Of a DNA stretch of 30,671 bases, positions 8,746-30,671 are shown one piece after another. Below the pieces are notes generated by a model that saw only the letters and a list, made by a program, of their open reading frames with translations, searched no databases and was not told the origin of the DNA. Every line of letters begins with the position of its first letter. Within the stretch, counting starts at the first letter, position 1. Made by a program: the position numbers and the translations under genes. This DNA comes from a virus: positions 1-30,671 of the IMG/VR virus record IMGVR_UViG_3300048030_000186; one strand, written 5' to 3'.

Positions 8746-8984
8746 TGTTTAATCCATTAGTAGATAATTTTAATCAACTAAGTGATAGCGAAGTAGAAGA
8801 TAAACTTACTGAGCTTGGACGTAAATATTGGATGACACGCAATCCCGAAGTTCAGAGTCAAATTGCAGTCTTAATGGATATGTATAAACTTGAACTCACA
8901 TCTCGTAGAGCTATTCAGCAACAAAAAATTAAAGATCAAGATAATGGCGATAATTCTCTTGACAATTTAATTAATATCAGTTAA
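8745..8984 (+). CDS. Small conserved phage protein, helical
   Basis: A 79-residue protein, translationally coupled to the virion gene before it through a one-base overlap (TAATG). It is almost wholly charged helix: LSDSEVEDKLTELGRKYW, then MTRNPEVQSQIAVLMDMYKLEL. This layout recurs in small conserved hypotheticals of marine T4-like phages. There is no membrane segment, signal peptide or catalytic motif. Its last 26 bases overlap the -35 and -10 boxes of the promoter for the next gene. The function is unknown. Confidence 0.6.
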   Translation: MFNPLVDNFNQLSDSEVEDKLTELGRKYWMTRNPEVQSQIAVLMDMYKLELTSRRAIQQQKIKDQDNGDNSLDNLINIS

Positions 8985-8987
8985 AAT
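8959..8987 (+). promoter_or_regulatory. Sigma-70 promoter overlapping a gene end
   Basis: The -35 box TTGACA (8959-8964), a 17-base spacer and the -10 box TAAAAT (8982-8987) form a near-consensus host promoter. Transcription would begin close to 8994, which is itself the ATG of the DnaE-like gene, so the message may have little or no leader. Confidence 0.65.
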
Positions 8988-8993
8988 ACATGT

Positions 8994-9515
8994 ATGCTTA
9001 TGAAAACAGATTCTCTCGGTATCCCGCGATTTACAAATAAAGATTTAGTCGATATGATCTATAGTGGCAATGTAGATAAATGTCACGTAGTTCTATGTGA
9101 CGAATCAGATGATGTAGATAAATTTAACGAGGCTATGGAAGAACAAGGTCTAGACAAACTACAAAAGTATATTCCATTAGATGTAGATCAAAAGACTTTT
9201 GACGGTGTATGTCAAAGTGAATGGTTTATGCCTGATGAATACAAAAACATGGATATTGCAGAATACTTGCAAAGTAAATGCAAAACGCAAGAAGAACTTA
9301 CACGTTATTTTGAAGAATATGCAGAGTTTAACAAACGAGGTATGCTACCGCTATTACGCTATATGATTTATCTTGTAGACTTTATGCGTGAGAATGACAT
9401 TGTATGGGGAGTAGGTAGAGGATCAAGTGTAGCAAGTTATGTGTTGTATTTGATAGGTGTACACAAAATTAATTCAATCCAGTTTGGCCTGGATTGGAGA
9501 GAGTTCTTAAGATAA
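8994..9515 (+). CDS. Stand-alone DNA polymerase III alpha (DnaE)-like fragment
   Basis: A 173-residue protein whose second half matches the region just before the catalytic palm of bacterial DnaE. It contains FNKRGMLPLLRYMIYLVDFM, NDIVWGVGRGSS (GRGSS at residues 141-145) and YVLYLIGVHKINSI, and ends in LDWREFLR. Full DnaE continues from this point into the segment with the catalytic aspartates; here a stop codon follows at once, and no continuation is seen in any frame downstream. It is therefore not a polymerase. It may be a decoy, a host-replisome binder or a repurposed fold. The N-terminal 80 residues show no clear match. The start is ATG 8994 or ATG 9000, at the predicted transcription start; no ribosome site precedes it. 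Confidence 0.7.
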   Translation: MLMKTDSLGIPRFTNKDLVDMIYSGNVDKCHVVLCDESDDVDKFNEAMEEQGLDKLQKYIPLDVDQKTFDGVCQSEWFMPDEYKNMDIAEYLQSKCKTQEELTRYFEEYAEFNKRGMLPLLRYMIYLVDFMRENDIVWGVGRGSSVASYVLYLIGVHKINSIQFGLDWREFLR

Positions 9516-10893: not shown

Positions 10894-10970
10894 GCGGCTA
10901 TAGCTCAGCTGGATAGAGCGTAGGTTTGCGGAACCTAAGGTCAGGAGTTCGAATCTCTTTAGCCGCGCCA
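10894..10970 (+). tRNA. tRNA-Arg, anticodon GCG
   Basis: A complete 77-base cloverleaf. The acceptor stem (GCGGCTA with TAGCCGC) is fully paired. The anticodon stem TAGGT/ACCTA has five pairs around the loop TTGCGGA, giving GCG at 10928-10930. The T-arm has a GTTCGAAT loop region, and CCA is encoded. A20 in the D-loop and C35 in the anticodon match known arginine identity elements. GCG is unusual, because most bacteria read CGU and CGC with an ACG (inosine) tRNA. It has its own promoter and lies 14 bases before the exonuclease gene, so the two may be co-transcribed. Confidence 0.95.
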
Positions 10971-19596: not shown

Positions 19597-19912
19597 TGGA
19601 TGTAGTACAGTACAGAAACTAGATGTTTTCTCTACTGAAGTAGAGCGTGTACCGCTTAAATTAGAAAGCCCTGTGACTCCTGAAATGGAGGAAATTAAAT
19701 GGGTAATTATTACTAGCGAAAACGCAGAACAAGTATTTGCTAAACTACAAGAACAAGGATCAGATCCTGTGTTGTTTGGTTTAACTGACGATGGATATGA
19801 AACACTGTCAAAAAACTTTGCACAAATACGTGCATATATGATTCAACAGTCAACAGTTCTTGATCAGTATCGCGAATATTATGAGCCTGAAGAGGTTGAC
19901 AACGAAGAATAG
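19526..19912 (+). CDS. o-spanin lipoprotein (Rz1-like)
   Basis: A lipoprotein whose start lies inside the i-spanin gene in another frame, overlapping by 71 bases. From ATG 19526 (spacing 9 from a GAGG ribosome site; ATG 19517 is also possible) there is a signal peptide ending in the lipobox LISGC, with the lipid-bearing Cys at residue 26 of 128. The rest is unusually long for an o-spanin, with a folded-looking segment (WVIITSENAEQVFAKLQEQG, then LFGLTDDGYETL) and an acidic end. The nested overlap is the classic Rz/Rz1 layout. Its end overlaps the -35 box of the next promoter. Confidence 0.82.
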   Translation: MQLKSLKSTQSALVLLILTTFLISGCSTVQKLDVFSTEVERVPLKLESPVTPEMEEIKWVIITSENAEQVFAKLQEQGSDPVLFGLTDDGYETLSKNFAQIRAYMIQQSTVLDQYREYYEPEEVDNEE

Positions 19913-19924
19913 TTTTGTTATACT
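19896..19924 (+). promoter_or_regulatory. Sigma-70 promoter for iscU
   Basis: TTGACA (19896-19901), 17 bases, then TATACT (19919-19924) match the host promoter at 11 of 12 positions. It begins within the end of the o-spanin gene and lies 22 bases before the iscU ATG, so iscU can be made apart from the late lysis genes. Confidence 0.85.
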
Positions 19925-19946: not shown

Positions 19947-20375
19947 ATGGCATATTCAGATAAAGTAGTTAAGCGTTTTGAAGACGTTCTTAACAACCCT
20001 CATAGTCACGGGGTAGGTCGCTTTGATCCAAATGATCCTAACGTGGCAACAGGCATGACTGGCGCACCGGCGTGTGGTGATGTAATGAAACTTGACTTAA
20101 AAGTAAATCCTGATACTGATGTTATTGAGGATGTTAAATTTAAGACATATGGTTGCGGTAGTGCTATAGCAAGTTCAACAATGTTTGTTGAAATGCTTAA
20201 AGGACTTACTATGACTGAAGCATTAGAAATTAAAGATAAAGATATTGCTGATGCTTTAGAATTACCTCCTATCAAATTGCATTGTTCTGTACTAGCAGAG
20301 GATTCTATTAAGAAAGCCTTAAAAGATTGGGACGAAAAGAAAGCAAAACGTAAACATAACGGAGGACCTGAATAA
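19947..20375 (+). CDS. iscU: Fe-S cluster scaffold, IscU-type
   Basis: A 142-residue scaffold protein of the NifU N-terminal/IscU family. The three cluster cysteines are C43 (PACGDV), C70 (YGCGSA) and C113 (LHCS), with the conserved Asp45 after the first and His112 before the last. The chaperone-binding motif LPPIK (residues 107-111) that HscA recognises is intact. The opening YSDKVVKRFEDVLNNP is also IscU-like, so every known functional residue is kept. It would accept sulfur from the host IscS and deliver clusters to Fe-S proteins such as the phage ferredoxin and radical SAM protein. It has its own sigma-70 promoter, and its stop overlaps the next ATG. Confidence 0.95.
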   Translation: MAYSDKVVKRFEDVLNNPHSHGVGRFDPNDPNVATGMTGAPACGDVMKLDLKVNPDTDVIEDVKFKTYGCGSAIASSTMFVEMLKGLTMTEALEIKDKDIADALELPPIKLHCSVLAEDSIKKALKDWDEKKAKRKHNGGPE

Positions 20376-20566
20376 TGCCTATTAAATTTAAACCATCACA
20401 AACCATTAGAGACAAAGCATCTGGTAAAAATAAAACACAACATTTTTACATGAAGTCTACACCAACCAAAGAACTTGTTGATTACTTTGATAGTTTTAAT
20501 GCTAAACCTAAACTAAAAGTAAAAGTAAAACGAGAACTTGTACGCAGAGGTTACTACAAAAGCTGA
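20375..20566 (+). CDS. Small basic conserved phage protein
   Basis: A 63-residue basic protein with a CGGAGGA ribosome site inside iscU and a one-base overlap with its stop. The pattern IKFKPSQTIRDKASGK, then HFYMKSTPTKEL and a final KVKRELVRRGYYKS, resembles a small conserved protein of T4-like cyanophages. The charge suggests nucleic-acid binding; this is inference. Its stop codon overlaps the next late promoter motif. Confidence 0.65.
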   Translation: MPIKFKPSQTIRDKASGKNKTQHFYMKSTPTKELVDYFDSFNAKPKLKVKVKRELVRRGYYKS

Positions 20567-20572
20567 TAAATA
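20565..20572 (+). promoter_or_regulatory. Late promoter-like motif GATAAATA
   Basis: CTGATAAATACTTG overlaps the stop of the small basic gene and lies 25 bases before the membrane-protein pair at 20598 and 20879. It separates these from the sigma-70 driven iscU. Confidence 0.55.
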
Positions 20573-20597: not shown

Positions 20598-20879
20598 ATG
20601 TGGGATATGATTGAAAGAATGGCGAATGATCGCCTATGGATTTACACAGCATTAGTTGGGTCGCTATTTGGATTAGCGTTTTCAACATATTTTCAAAGCA
20701 CACGTTTAGGCTTATGGCTATATGCTAAGTTTGACTTGACAATTGACTTCTTAGTTAAACGTTGGGGATGGACTTGGTTACAACAGCCAGAAGATGCATG
20801 GCGTAAAAAATATCCACATGTAACCAAAAAAATTGACGAATTAGAAAAACGTCTAAAACATCTTGAGGGGAAAAGATAA
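20598..20879 (+). CDS. Small membrane protein with C-terminal coiled coil
   Basis: A 93-residue protein. Residues 12-30 are a likely membrane helix (LWIYTALVGSLFGLAFSTY), and a second weaker hydrophobic stretch follows near 38-50. The C-terminal 30 residues are a charged coiled coil (KKIDELEKRLKHLEGKR). It has a GAGGGA ribosome site and follows a late promoter motif. It overlaps by one base with the EF-hand membrane protein, so the two are probably made together. With the lysis genes nearby, a part in lysis or membrane remodelling is possible but not shown. Confidence 0.6.
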   Translation: MWDMIERMANDRLWIYTALVGSLFGLAFSTYFQSTRLGLWLYAKFDLTIDFLVKRWGWTWLQQPEDAWRKKYPHVTKKIDELEKRLKHLEGKR

Positions 20880-21223
20880 TGGCAGAAGAAGACAAAAAAT
20901 CCGTAACTATGGATTCAGCTACAGCTAAAAGTATGGATACAAATGGCGATGGGCATATATCAGCAGAAGAAGCCGCAATGGATCTTGAATTCAAACGTAA
21001 ACGGTTAGAAGATGCTGATGCTATGCGTGATGCACAACGCAATATGGCATGGTTTGCATTGTTTGGTATGCTACTGTATCCGTTTGCAGTAGTTGTTGCA
21101 AGCCTAATTGGATTAGATACTGCTGGTAAAATTTTAGGAGATATGGCTCCTACATACTTTGTATCAGTAGCGGCTATTGTTGCGGCATTCTATGCTAAAG
21201 AAGCAGTTGGCGCAAAGAAGTAA
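20879..21223 (+). CDS. EF-hand membrane protein
   Basis: A 114-residue protein with one canonical EF-hand loop, DTNGDGHISAEE at residues 20-31 (Asp, Asn, Asp, Ser and Glu at the ligand positions), then a charged helix, then two membrane helices (about 56-78 and 91-110). The start has a strong GAGGGG ribosome site. A single EF-hand joined to a two-helix membrane domain suggests calcium-sensitive control of a membrane function. A holin is one option: no other holin is recognised near the endolysin and spanins, and holins often have two or three helices. It could equally be a superinfection-exclusion or other membrane protein. Confidence 0.65.
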   Translation: MAEEDKKSVTMDSATAKSMDTNGDGHISAEEAAMDLEFKRKRLEDADAMRDAQRNMAWFALFGMLLYPFAVVVASLIGLDTAGKILGDMAPTYFVSVAAIVAAFYAKEAVGAKK

Positions 21224-21238
21224 TCACGTCTGATAAAA

Positions 21239-21279
21239 TGTAATAGTCCATGCGATAAGTATTAATATGGACTATTACA
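21239..21279 (+). promoter_or_regulatory. Hairpin covering the dnaJ start codon
   Basis: TGTAATAGTCCAT (21239-21251) and ATGGACTATTACA (21267-21279) are perfect inverted repeats, 13 bp with a 15-base loop. The 3' arm begins at the ATG of dnaJ, so in RNA the start codon and the next three codons would be paired. There is no poly-T run after it and no ribosome site in the loop other than a weak TAAG. It may be a translational switch, perhaps heat-sensitive, for this heat-shock gene. Confidence 0.65.
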
Positions 21280-22070
21280 CAATCCTTGGTGTTCAAAAAA
21301 ACGCTTCTCCAGATCAGTTAAAAAAGGCATACAAGAAAGCAAGTATGCAACACCATCCTGATCGAGGAGGCGACGAAGAACAGTTTAAAAAAGTTAATGA
21401 AGCATATGCAACATTAAAGGATCCACAAAAAAGAGCGGCATACGACAATCCACAACCAAGAATGGATAGTAATATGTTTAATCAAAACTTTGGAAACTTT
21501 AATGATATATTCTCATCTATGTTTGGTGCTGATGTTCGTAGACAGCATGTACGCAATCCTGATGTCAATATTAAAGTTCCAATAAGTCTTAGAGAAGTAA
21601 TTACAGGTAAGAAAATACTAGCAACTTACAGGCTACGCAACGGACAAGAGCAAACTGTTGATTTAGATATACCTATTGGAGCTAAACATAAAGATACTAT
21701 AAGATTTAGTGGTTTAGGAGAAAGTAGTTTTCCTGGACCAAGAGGCGATTTGTATGCAGTTGTAGACATTCAAAAAGACTCTGTATTTGAACGCTCAGGT
21801 GATAATGTATTACTATCTTTAAAAGTAAATTGTTTAGAACTAATAACAGGATGTAATAAACATATAACAACACTTGAGGGTAGAACAATATCATTAACTA
21901 TTCCTCAAAATACAAAACACGGATCAACATTTAGTATGAACGGATACGGATTACCAAATATGCATACAAACAGGAGAGGCTCTATGCTTGTACGAATTGA
22001 AGCAGAAATACCTCAAACATTAACTGATAAACAAATAAAGAAAATAAGCGAGATAGTAAATGGATCTTAA
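21267..22070 (+). CDS. DnaJ/CbpA-like J-domain co-chaperone
   Basis: A 267-residue protein. Residues 1-60 are a J domain with the HPD motif at 30-32 (HHPDRGGDEEQFKKVNEAY). After a Gly/Phe/Asn-rich linker, two DnaJ C-terminal barrel domains follow (about 100-260), with the usual IKVPISLREVITGKK and LGE segments. The Cys-rich zinc finger of DnaJ is absent, so it is a type II protein like CbpA, somewhat short for the class (306). It would activate the host DnaK ATPase. It overlaps the deformylase gene by 11 bases and heads a run with deformylase and a Clp ATPase. No ribosome site is visible, and the start codon lies in a hairpin. Confidence 0.9.
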   Translation: MDYYTILGVQKNASPDQLKKAYKKASMQHHPDRGGDEEQFKKVNEAYATLKDPQKRAAYDNPQPRMDSNMFNQNFGNFNDIFSSMFGADVRRQHVRNPDVNIKVPISLREVITGKKILATYRLRNGQEQTVDLDIPIGAKHKDTIRFSGLGESSFPGPRGDLYAVVDIQKDSVFERSGDNVLLSLKVNCLELITGCNKHITTLEGRTISLTIPQNTKHGSTFSMNGYGLPNMHTNRRGSMLVRIEAEIPQTLTDKQIKKISEIVNGS

Positions 22071-24799: not shown

Positions 24800-25463
24800 A
24801 TCAAATAAATTATTCTACGGCAAATACTTATATAGACTTGAAATAAACAATCATCTAGCAAGATTTTTTAGAGAGAAAAATCTTCCTCAGGCTAAATCTG
24901 TGCTAGATAGTTTACAGGGTCAAATTGATTCAGGTATGTTGGAAAAATTAACAGTCCGTCGTGGCCTGCGCCATATACAAGTACCTTATGATGAATTTAT
25001 CGATGCTGTAAAACTTTATAGTTCTTTTATAACTGCTGATGATTATAAACTACGTGTATCCTATAGTTTTCTAAATATATATGCTAATAATTTAGATTGG
25101 CTTAAAGACATTGCTAACCAAATTAATTCAAATAAAGTATACGGACTATGGAAACCTAATGAAAAATACATAACTTCTTTAAAACAAAAAAATGTAATTT
25201 TAGTTAACGAAGGTAACGGGTATCAATATAAAGTTACATTTGGCAATGGGCGAGGAGAAGAATCATTTATAAAATGGGCTGATGCAAACCCTAATTTAAT
25301 TAAAGTAGGTCCTCGTCTTAAAGAAGAACTAGAAGCTCAAGGATACGTTAACGGTATGTATTTTTATGCAAGAGATGAAAAAACATTGTCATTATGCAAC
25401 CTAGTTACGTCAAATATTAGGCGCATTGACAAATTACTAGTCAAGTCCGATATTGATAAATAG
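24786..25463 (+). CDS. Conserved protein of unknown function, TTG start
   Basis: A 225-residue protein when started at TTG 24786, which overlaps the Clp stop by 14 bases. The frame is open to 24720, but that part lies wholly inside the Clp gene. The start is chosen because the conserved-looking opening SNKLFYGKYLYRLEINN comes soon after. It is basic and aromatic, with segments YDEFIDAVKLY, DDYKLRVSYSFLNIYAN and a closing GMYFYARDEKTLSLCNL. No known domain, membrane helix or catalytic motif is recognised. Its final codons contain a late promoter motif. Function unknown. Confidence 0.55.
   Translation: MITNESNKLFYGKYLYRLEINNHLARFFREKNLPQAKSVLDSLQGQIDSGMLEKLTVRRGLRHIQVPYDEFIDAVKLYSSFITADDYKLRVSYSFLNIYANNLDWLKDIANQINSNKVYGLWKPNEKYITSLKQKNVILVNEGNGYQYKVTFGNGRGEESFIKWADANPNLIKVGPRLKEELEAQGYVNGMYFYARDEKTLSLCNLVTSNIRRIDKLLVKSDIDK
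25455..25462 (+). promoter_or_regulatory. GATAAATA motif at a gene end
   Basis: The 8-mer encodes the last codons before the TAG stop of the previous gene and lies only five bases before the next ATG. If active, it would start transcription within the downstream coding sequence or at its ATG, so it may be chance or may serve a gene further on. Confidence 0.35.
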
Positions 25464-25467
25464 TTAT

Positions 25468-25809
25468 ATGGCACAAAGTGAATTAATATTAGCAAATCAA
25501 ATGCATCCCGGTGATAGTACCGCACAAACTACATTCGGTGAAAAATTTAAAGGGGACGGGTACTACGGACGTAGTGACGGGCTCCACACCGTACAATACA
25601 GTGTAACAGGATTTACAGGCACAGTTGCCGTGCAAGCAACACTTGCAGTTAATCCAGTTGAAGCAGATTGGTTTACAGTCTACACCGAATCACATTTAAC
25701 TACAACTAAAACGATTGTAGAAAACTTCACAGGAAATTATGTTTGGTTAAGAGCCGCAGTAAGTAGCTGGACTGATGGCTCAGTTGATAGTATATTATTA
25801 AATCATTAG
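25468..25809 (+). CDS. Putative virion protein, beta-rich
   Basis: A 113-residue protein. The start is ATG 25468 (MAQSELILANQ); there is no clear ribosome site. The body is a beta-rich domain: DGYYGRSDGLHTVQYSVTGF, TVAVQATLAVNP, then a Trp-containing turn and FTGNYVWLRAAVSSW. This resembles small conserved structural proteins of marine T4-like phages and has the look of a jelly-roll or Ig-like adhesion fold. No Cys. The 10-base gap to the next gene and the late-type neighbours support a virion role, which is inference. Confidence 0.6.
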   Translation: MAQSELILANQMHPGDSTAQTTFGEKFKGDGYYGRSDGLHTVQYSVTGFTGTVAVQATLAVNPVEADWFTVYTESHLTTTKTIVENFTGNYVWLRAAVSSWTDGSVDSILLNH

Positions 25810-29181: not shown

Positions 29182-29514
29182 ATGAAAACTAAAGAATTTA
29201 GAGAAGGACTTGGCGATTTAGCCGCAAAGGCTGAAATGGATCACGAAGTACAAATGGCCCGTGCTGATCTATATAAAATTGCAAAATACGCAATTCAGTT
29301 ACACGACATGCTAAAAGGTGTAAGTGAAGCAGAAGGTATTGAAGGTTGGCAACAAGCTAAAATTACAAAAGCCGCAGATTATCTAGGAAGTGTATATCAC
29401 AATTTAGAATATGATCAAAAATTTGGTAGCGGACAAAGCATGGAAGTTGAACCAACTGTTGCTGAACAAACTTATCGCGAACGATTACAAAGTAAACTAG
29501 ACGAAAAAAAGTAA
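29182..29514 (+). CDS. Conserved late phage protein
   Basis: A 110-residue helical protein with a late promoter motif and a GGAG ribosome site. The opening MKTKEFREGLGDLAAKA resembles the N-termini of its neighbours. The conserved core is EVQMARADLYKIAKYAIQLH, then EGWQQAKITKAADYLGSVYH, an all-helix domain seen in marine T4-like phages with no known role. The last 25 residues are polar and charged. It precedes the peptidoglycan-binding-domain protein by nine bases. A head-internal or assembly role is possible. Confidence 0.6.
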   Translation: MKTKEFREGLGDLAAKAEMDHEVQMARADLYKIAKYAIQLHDMLKGVSEAEGIEGWQQAKITKAADYLGSVYHNLEYDQKFGSGQSMEVEPTVAEQTYRERLQSKLDEKK

Positions 29515-29523
29515 GGTAGAACA

Positions 29524-30671
29524 ATGAAAATTTCTACCTTACTAGAATTTGCAATAAATCCACAGGTCGAACAAATGCTCGACGACGGCGTGGCTCGCAT
29601 ATGGGGCGGGCAACTCCAACGTGCCGTTGAAGAGATTGGTAATAGTACAGGCAGTAGAAGACAAGTACATTATTTTGCAAGTAAGGTTGCAGAAATTAGA
29701 AACTTAGAATGGATTGTTGTTCGTATACAAGGAAGAGTAACTTACATTACAGCTGAACGTCTTGAAGATAATTCTCCTAAAGAAATACAGTACGGAGACT
29801 TGCCTTTACCTAGTAACGAAAAAGCAGAAATTCTTAATGATATTGCAGGTGCCGGACTTCTTCCGCCATACATTGAAAACTTATGGATGGAAGAAGGCGA
29901 CGAAATACAAAAGGCGGCTGCAGAAATTCAAGATAGATGGAGAGCTGGCAGAGTTGCAAGTAGGGCAGATGATACTGCCACTAGAGTAACTGCTACATCT
30001 AATACTGATAGTACGTTTAACGTTGACGATGTAAGAGCCGCAATTGAACGTGGTGAAGAAACATCTGTTGTAAACGACGGTGGCAATATTGAAGTAGTAA
30101 GTGATACTTCAAAATTAAATAATCTAGTATCTTTTGCTAGTTCTGGTAAAGGTGGGCTTGCTAATGACTTTGACGAAAAAGATGCAATAAATGAATTGCA
30201 AACATTTCTTGTCAGTCTTGGTCTAAACGTTGGTAACAACGGTGTAGACGGACTTTATGGAAGGAAAACTGTTGCCGCAGTTAAGAAGTTCCAAAGTGCA
30301 ATAAAGGATCTTGCAGTTGATGGAGATGCAGGACCTCGGACTATTCAAGCTATATCAACTGTTGAATCAGACTTGCTCCGTATGCAAGAACTTGTAGATA
30401 GACACCTTAGCGAATCTTTTACATATAAAAGTAACTTAGCAAGATTATTAGAAGCAGATTTAACTGATGCTGAAGCCGCAGAGCTACAAGAATTAATCGA
30501 CAAGTACAAAGATTTTAGTACAGAATTTCCAGGCTTTATGGACGGTGTATATACTAAAGCACAAGAAGCGGCAGCCGGAGTACAAACACTCCCACTAGAC
30601 AATGATGAAGTAGTCTCTACTGATGGCAACGACGGGGCAGATGCTGAAACTACTGATGACGGTCTTGGCGA
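29524..30671 (+). CDS. Late protein with peptidoglycan-binding domain, 3' end outside the window
   Basis: The frame is open from ATG 29524 to the window's end, with 382 residues visible. It starts MKISTLLEFAINP, where LLE resembles the T4 prohead protease site. Residues 1-140 are an unassigned alpha/beta region. Residues about 220-280 are a PG_binding_1 domain: INELQTFLVSLGLNVGNNGV, a DGLYGRKTVAAVKKF block, then VDGDAGPRTIQAI. The rest is acidic with coiled-coil character (AEAAELQELIDKYKDF) and a disordered Asp-rich end. With a late promoter upstream, a virion protein that touches the cell wall on entry, or an internal head protein, is plausible. No catalytic domain is visible in the part present. 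Confidence 0.75.
   Translation, partial: MKISTLLEFAINPQVEQMLDDGVARIWGGQLQRAVEEIGNSTGSRRQVHYFASKVAEIRNLEWIVVRIQGRVTYITAERLEDNSPKEIQYGDLPLPSNEKAEILNDIAGAGLLPPYIENLWMEEGDEIQKAAAEIQDRWRAGRVASRADDTATRVTATSNTDSTFNVDDVRAAIERGEETSVVNDGGNIEVVSDTSKLNNLVSFASSGKGGLANDFDEKDAINELQTFLVSLGLNVGNNGVDGLYGRKTVAAVKKFQSAIKDLAVDGDAGPRTIQAISTVESDLLRMQELVDRHLSESFTYKSNLARLLEADLTDAEAAELQELIDKYKDFSTEFPGFMDGVYTKAQEAAAGVQTLPLDNDEVVSTDGNDGADAETTDDGLG

Follow-up and report, generated by a model that had tools for sequence, protein, structure and literature searches.

Introduction

In phage T4, the start regions of genes e, soc and 49 are described as sequestered on read-through RNA, and the late RNA lacks the 5' strand of the hairpin (PMC3014915). 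That review words what the T4 hairpins cover as 'SD and/or AUG', so that a Shine-Dalgarno (SD) sequence on the late RNA is not a defining trait (PMC3014915). A similar arrangement, with a sequestering RNA hairpin and a middle or late promoter immediately upstream, is described for I-TevI, I-TevII, I-TevIII, segB and mobE of Aeh1 (PMC2988022). Leaderless messages, with a 5'-terminal AUG and no SD, are known from bacteria (PMC9031893), and phage transcripts are called 'often leaderless' in a passage of PMC5312081, a statement that tempers the novelty of the leaderless part of what we report here. For Melnitz, late promoters have been reported, and the text available from that paper mentions no hairpin or dnaJ and has 'leaderless' in a reference title only (PMC9004378). 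Among the titles and abstract beginnings found in the literature, none describes such a dnaJ hairpin or leaderless late genes in T4-like phages, and the remark of the first-pass annotation that no element of this form was known in a phage dnaJ stands at that level of search.

Here we analyse the start of a dnaJ gene in a viral stretch of 30,671 nucleotides (IMG/VR record IMGVR_UViG_3300048030_000186), hereafter the window. As in T4 gene e, the start AUG of dnaJ is paired on read-through RNA, to judge from in silico folding and conserved pairing, and the late promoter is sited such that the predicted late RNA (+1 at 21267) would lack the 5' strand. T4 gene e has late elements whose ends lie 26 and 13 nt from the ATG, followed by the SD TAGGAGGT, whereas the predicted late RNA of dnaJ has no SD, its promoter element stands 5 nt from the ATG and the stem covers the AUG together with codons 2-4. 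The gene is also dnaJ and not a lysis gene, and it is for dnaJ that RNA covariation over many phages can be shown. With I-TevI, I-TevII, I-TevIII, segB and mobE, the dnaJ hairpin shares its association with a phage late-type promoter element, but those hairpins are described as masking a consensus ribosome-binding site about 8 nt before the AUG and as serving homing endonucleases (PMC2988022). The predicted 5'-terminal AUG without SD recalls the leaderless mRNAs of bacteria; here, in contrast, the promoters concerned are of the gp55-type late and the sigma70 class, the phages are marine and T4-like, and a putative silencing hairpin is added. As in heat-shock RNA thermometers, the start region is paired and the gene encodes a chaperone, but the dnaJ hairpin shows no melting in the physiological range in silico and masks no SD. 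Our best reading is that this is a new form of the T4 gene e/I-TevI-type silencer, with a guarded leaderless AUG instead of an SD and on a different gene.

Results

The dnaJ gene (21267..22070, + strand, as for all features of the locus given below) encodes a protein of 267 aa with a J domain (PF00226) and a DnaJ_C domain (PF01556) by Pfam, and it is flanked on one side by a small membrane-like gene (20879-21223), on the other by a peptide deformylase gene and a ClpA/B-like gene. The hairpin at its start consists of a 5' arm TGTAATAGTCCAT (21239..21251), a loop of 15 bases GCGATAAGTATTAAT (21252..21266) and a 3' arm ATGGACTATTACA (21267..21279). The 5' arm is the exact inverted repeat of the 3' arm, and the latter holds dnaJ codons 1-4 (ATG GAC TAT TAC A) and is the predicted 5' end of the late RNA. 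These coordinates confirm the first-pass annotation, which had described 13-bp exact repeats around a 15-base loop with the 3' arm starting at the ATG. Its statement that the start codon would be paired in RNA agrees with our in silico folding and with the pairing conserved in relatives, and its observation that no ribosome site precedes the ATG also holds, as no SD was found by eye in front of dnaJ and only a weak TAAG, itself part of the promoter-like motif, is present. Folding of positions 21224-21330 gave -23.5 kcal/mol (z = -3.58), a stability equalled by 0 of 200 shuffles, with an additional loop-side pair G21252-U21266. Perfect arms of at least 13 bp separated by 3-30 nt occur in the window at dnaJ only; any such repeat, at this stage without regard to its position relative to a start codon, was found in 2 of 60 dinucleotide shuffles (mean 0.05 per shuffle). 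No U-tract lies 3' of the hairpin, and a terminator scan of the region gave no terminator-like site. A tRNA was the sole match in the Rfam gathering search of the window, with no family for the dnaJ hairpin and no thermometer motif. Elsewhere in the window we noted a tRNA-Arg(gcg) at 10894-10970 and a second perfect inverted repeat (12 bp, 10-nt gap; 29510-29543), which flanks the stop of ORF 29182-29514.

Searching IMG/VR with the DnaJ protein returned 26 loci, and a profile search returned 356 relatives, of which the best 80 were retained, giving 59 distinct dnaJ leaders that were each scored for the 11 inner pairs of the helix. Within this sample (best 80 of 356 relatives) the helix is present in 26 of the 59 leaders and absent in 33. 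All 11 inner pairs form in 17 of the hairpin leaders, 10 form in eight, and 8 form in one (L133), in which the outer helix is absent; the 33 leaders without the hairpin have 3-7 of the 11. The inner ten pairs of the 26 hairpin leaders comprise 260 cells, of which 233 are Watson-Crick, 24 G-U and 3 broken, and when all 13 pairs are considered 89.3% of cells are paired, 30 of the 302 paired cells being G-U. The 5' arm thus tracks the 3' arm in relatives by Watson-Crick and G-U changes, and the fraction of paired cells falls to 25-60% when the 3' arm is shifted. Two-sided changes were detected in four pairs (16 cells), and neither these nor the covariation score were reached by any of 500 column shuffles; compensatory changes in related phages, which the first-pass annotation had named as a check, are therefore found. 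Further pair types number 10, which does not exceed chance, 471 of the 500 column shuffles being as high.

The clearest compensations involve codon 3, where TAT is replaced by TAC or CAC together with an A to G change in the 5' arm (L135, L168, L194, L200 and L206); the pair of columns 20-52 is G-C in these five leaders, which occupy at least four places on the DnaJ tree, and in L200 and L206 (MDHY) pair 22-50 has switched too. L141 has TAC at codon 3 with no matching change in the 5' arm, and one of its inner pairs is broken. RNAalifold added two loop-side pairs (-15/-1 and -14/-2), which shorten the loop and are present in 24 of the 26 hairpin leaders; the window, with C-A at -14/-2, is among the two leaders that depart from this, and only -15/-1 can form in it. 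Codon 2 is GAC in 26/26 hairpin leaders and in 27/33 of the others. The 26 leaders used for covariation were chosen by pairing, and presence of the upstream gene 20879 selects the same 26 independently of pairing. The dnaJ hairpin is real, exact and conserved, and the comparison of leaders supports selection on it as RNA. The G-U pairs fit the + strand RNA and would be mismatches in DNA or in antisense RNA.

Hairpin presence requires 10 changes on the DnaJ tree, and a single dnaJ clade carrying the hairpin was rejected on that count. Gene 20879 (20879..21223) encodes 114 aa with a weak EF-hand and a membrane-like character, and among relatives it occurs together with the hairpin. A homologue lies just upstream in 26/26 hairpin leaders, and no match was found in the 33 hairpin-free leaders, for some of which the upstream sequence is short (146 bases in L142). 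In the window, the hairpin starts 15 nt past the stop codon of this gene. Since the hairpin changes 10 times on the DnaJ tree, the upstream gene and the hairpin have probably been moved together by recombination. We also scanned IMG/VR with a pattern of the 5' arm and loop, which tells whether the motif is bound to dnaJ and not what share of dnaJ genes carry it; 98 stretches matched and, among the 80 listed, 76 precede ATGGAYTAYTAY, one (L100) precedes a DnaJ with MNYY and three lie elsewhere. A tblastn search of annotated phages found DnaJ-like matches in 59 records, all at 60% identity or less, and in the two examined among them, Atu_ph07 and Phosso, no 5-nt-spaced element precedes dnaJ.

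The loop contains a T4-type late-promoter element, GATAAGTA (21254..21261), one base off the local consensus GATAAATA and overlooked by the first-pass annotation. It is followed by a gap of 5 nt (21262..21266), which puts the A of the ATG at the predicted +1. Given that the T4 late element TATAAATA is placed at -13 to -6 (PMC1524935), a 5-nt gap would make the A of the dnaJ ATG the +1, and the late RNA would be leaderless and devoid of the 5' arm. The dnaJ loop element is of the same motif class as that before the window's putative structural genes, and ATAAATA is found upstream of window genes 2792, 5260, 8122, 16980, 20598 and 29182, mostly with an SD-like stretch in between. Across the 59 leaders (best 80 of 356 relatives), the heptamer at -12..-6 is ATAAGTA in 48, GTAAATA in 6, CTAAGTA in 2 and another sequence in three, so that the consensus ATAAATA occurs at dnaJ in 0/59 and a heptamer one base off (ATAAGTA or GTAAATA) in 54/59. 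These two heptamers are also present in 28/33 hairpin-free leaders, and the 5-nt gap is retained in relatives with and without the hairpin. ATAAATA itself is found at 67/70 distinct sites of a second predicted leaderless family, whose window member starts at 25468, and at 128/164 sites of the leadered class. We read the off-consensus dnaJ element as a putative promoter that is weak by design, and it could be a weak promoter or none. In two dnaJ genes without the hairpin (L198 and L199), TTGACT or TTGACA-17-TATAAT ends 6 nt before the ATG; under the -7 rule for sigma70, a 6-nt gap after the -10 element puts +1 at the A of the ATG. In these two leaders the late element, ATAAGTA, is 12 nt away from the ATG and overlaps the sigma70 promoter at leaderless spacing.

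The same exact spacing was found beyond dnaJ. Across the fetched loci, with 1,599 ORFs in 324 families, the gap from RTAARTA to the ATG is 5 nt 172 times, 4 nt 15 times and 6-8 nt 0 times, and a separate broad group has the motif 17-31 nt before the ATG. A stricter count over 1,274 ORF starts gave 125 cases at gap 5, 12 at gap 4, 0 at gap 6 and one each at gaps 7 and 8. The sites at gaps 4-5 come from few families, namely dnaJ (95/103 ORFs), the 25468 family (85/85) and a few sites in four others. Sigma70-like promoters (at least 11 of 12) end exactly 6 nt before the ATG in six cases, which include window gene 8994 and dnaJ of L198 and L199; there are 0 at 0-5 or 7-11 nt, and the other 44 lie at 12-53 nt. 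At window gene 8994, TTGACA-17-TAAAAT (8959-8994) ends 6 nt before the ATG, predicting a leaderless early gene. For the window ORF that was listed with TTG 25453 as its start, ATG 25468 is the probable start, GATAAATA (25455-25462) ending 5 nt before it; this is a predicted leaderless late gene, and its distant homologues in jumbo phages are annotated as structural protein. Opening the AUG costs a median of 2.35 kcal/mol in the 25468 family (85 leaders), and the hairpin was rejected as a general trait of leaderless genes.

Pelagibacter phage HTVC008M (NC_020484) has nine ATAAATA-5-ATG sites, all of which are annotated starts (gp10, 14, 20, 25, 27, 53, 63, 92 and 190, several being tail or head genes), together with one site at gap 6 and two at gap 8. 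In eight long contigs with these dnaJ genes, motif counts alone gave 26 sites at gap 5 (backwards control 3), six at gap 6 (control 7) and six at gap 7 (control 7). By motif counts alone, T4, syn9, S-PM2, P-SSM2, KVP40, RB49 and CBB were rejected as carriers of the 5-nt class, with 0-3 sites per genome, about the level of the backwards control (0-3).

Two candidate sources of read-through RNA lie upstream of dnaJ in the window. A late-promoter element GATAAATA before gene 20598 (20565..20572), recognised as a motif only, is a likely source of read-through into dnaJ, and a sigma70-like promoter before gene 19947 (TTGACA-17-TATACT, 11 of 12; 19896..19924) is a possible early one. The gene behind the latter (19947-20375) is IscU/NifU-like. 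L187, L193, L146, L152 and L203 likewise have a promoter scoring 11-12 of 12 shortly upstream of the IscU homologue or of genes next to it; a sigma70 site of 11 of 12 is absent from most hairpin contigs in the upstream sequence searched (4 kb at most), and a general tie of the hairpin to early promoters was rejected. At 20 C, the predicted cost of freeing the AUG on read-through RNA has a median of 11.2 kcal/mol for the 26 hairpin leaders (7.0 in the window) and is 2.3 kcal/mol for the 33 hairpin-free leaders; on RNA starting at the AUG it is 0.9 kcal/mol.

Discussion

Four features can be read from the sequences themselves: the helix, the conservation of that helix as RNA, the late-promoter-like element of the loop and the fixed 5-nt gap. 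Building on these, we hold it rather probable that the dnaJ hairpin is a promoter-dependent translation lock, that is, a silencer of read-through RNA of the T4 gene e/I-TevI type that guards a leaderless AUG and not an SD. RNA from promoters further upstream would carry both arms and fold the hairpin, hiding the dnaJ AUG, so that this RNA would yield little or no DnaJ. Transcription from the late promoter in the loop would give another RNA, beginning with the A of the AUG and free of the 5' arm, and this RNA, with its AUG at the 5' extreme, would be translated as a leaderless message. The amount of DnaJ would then depend on the late promoter of dnaJ itself and not on the upstream genes. We infer the use of the loop promoter, the translation block and the leaderless translation from this arrangement, and the exact start site at the AUG from the exact gaps of 5 nt (late) and 6 nt (sigma70). 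The first-pass annotation had suggested that the hairpin delays DnaJ until the RNA is opened by read-through. That it would limit or delay DnaJ on some transcripts comes near to our best reading, but the opening is reversed, because read-through RNA bears the hairpin and it is the RNA from the loop promoter that would lack the 5' arm. The lock appears to be optional, since 33/59 relatives (best 80 of 356) have no hairpin and still have the promoter and the gap. Against the lock, the AUG of read-through RNA might be silent anyway without an SD, and the perfect tie to gene 20879 would also fit a role for the mRNA of that gene. The strong read-through of gene 20879 may be what needs silencing, or the hairpin may serve the 20879 mRNA.

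This last possibility, a 3'-end element that stabilises or helps to process the 20879 mRNA and whose overlap with dnaJ is secondary, seems to us unlikely, even though the hairpin accompanies gene 20879 exactly (26/26 vs 0/33) and begins so shortly after its stop in the window. A stabiliser could sit anywhere in the intergenic gap, whereas the helix has the loop promoter at its centre and takes its 3' arm from the dnaJ AUG onwards, in a coding stretch where the letters are constrained; the missing U-tract moreover means that it is not an intrinsic terminator. Somewhat less probable still is an operator at which a putative protein (RegA-like, DnaJ itself or another RNA-binding protein) would bind the hairpin and repress translation. 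The well-conserved loop RCGRTAARTA of the hairpin set would suit such a binding site, but the loop heptamer persists in 28/33 relatives that have no hairpin, so its conservation does not require the stem.

The perfect dyad of the window could also point to a DNA element around the promoter, either bound by a regulator or extruded as a cruciform. We regard this as quite improbable, since the G-U pairs among the paired cells of relatives keep the RNA pairing and spoil the DNA dyad, and the compensatory changes preserve pairing and no fixed sequence. The reading proposed earlier, an RNA thermometer of a heat-shock gene, drew on DnaJ being a chaperone and on its paired start codon, and is the one we find hardest to credit. 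In folding predictions the third base of the AUG is more than 99.7% paired at all temperatures up to 70 C, well beyond those of the sea, and AUG accessibility is nearly unchanged from 4 to 60 C; there is also no SD to mask, and no Rfam family or known motif matches. We thus reject the thermometer and retain the promoter-dependent lock as the preferred reading.

If it is true, a late-promoter/hairpin lock would exist outside lysis and homing genes and would act on a leaderless AUG. In a wider sense, we see about an even chance that this group of marine T4-like phages, along with relatives like HTVC008M, possesses a set of leaderless genes, predicted to be transcribed from sigma70 and gp55-type promoters through an exact -10 spacing, and that at dnaJ this would be joined with a promoter-dependent hairpin insulating the gene from its operon. 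Many genes of marine T4-like phages may then have leaderless starts, which would affect gene calling and expression design, and this may bear on how phages use the ribosomes of small-genome marine bacteria.
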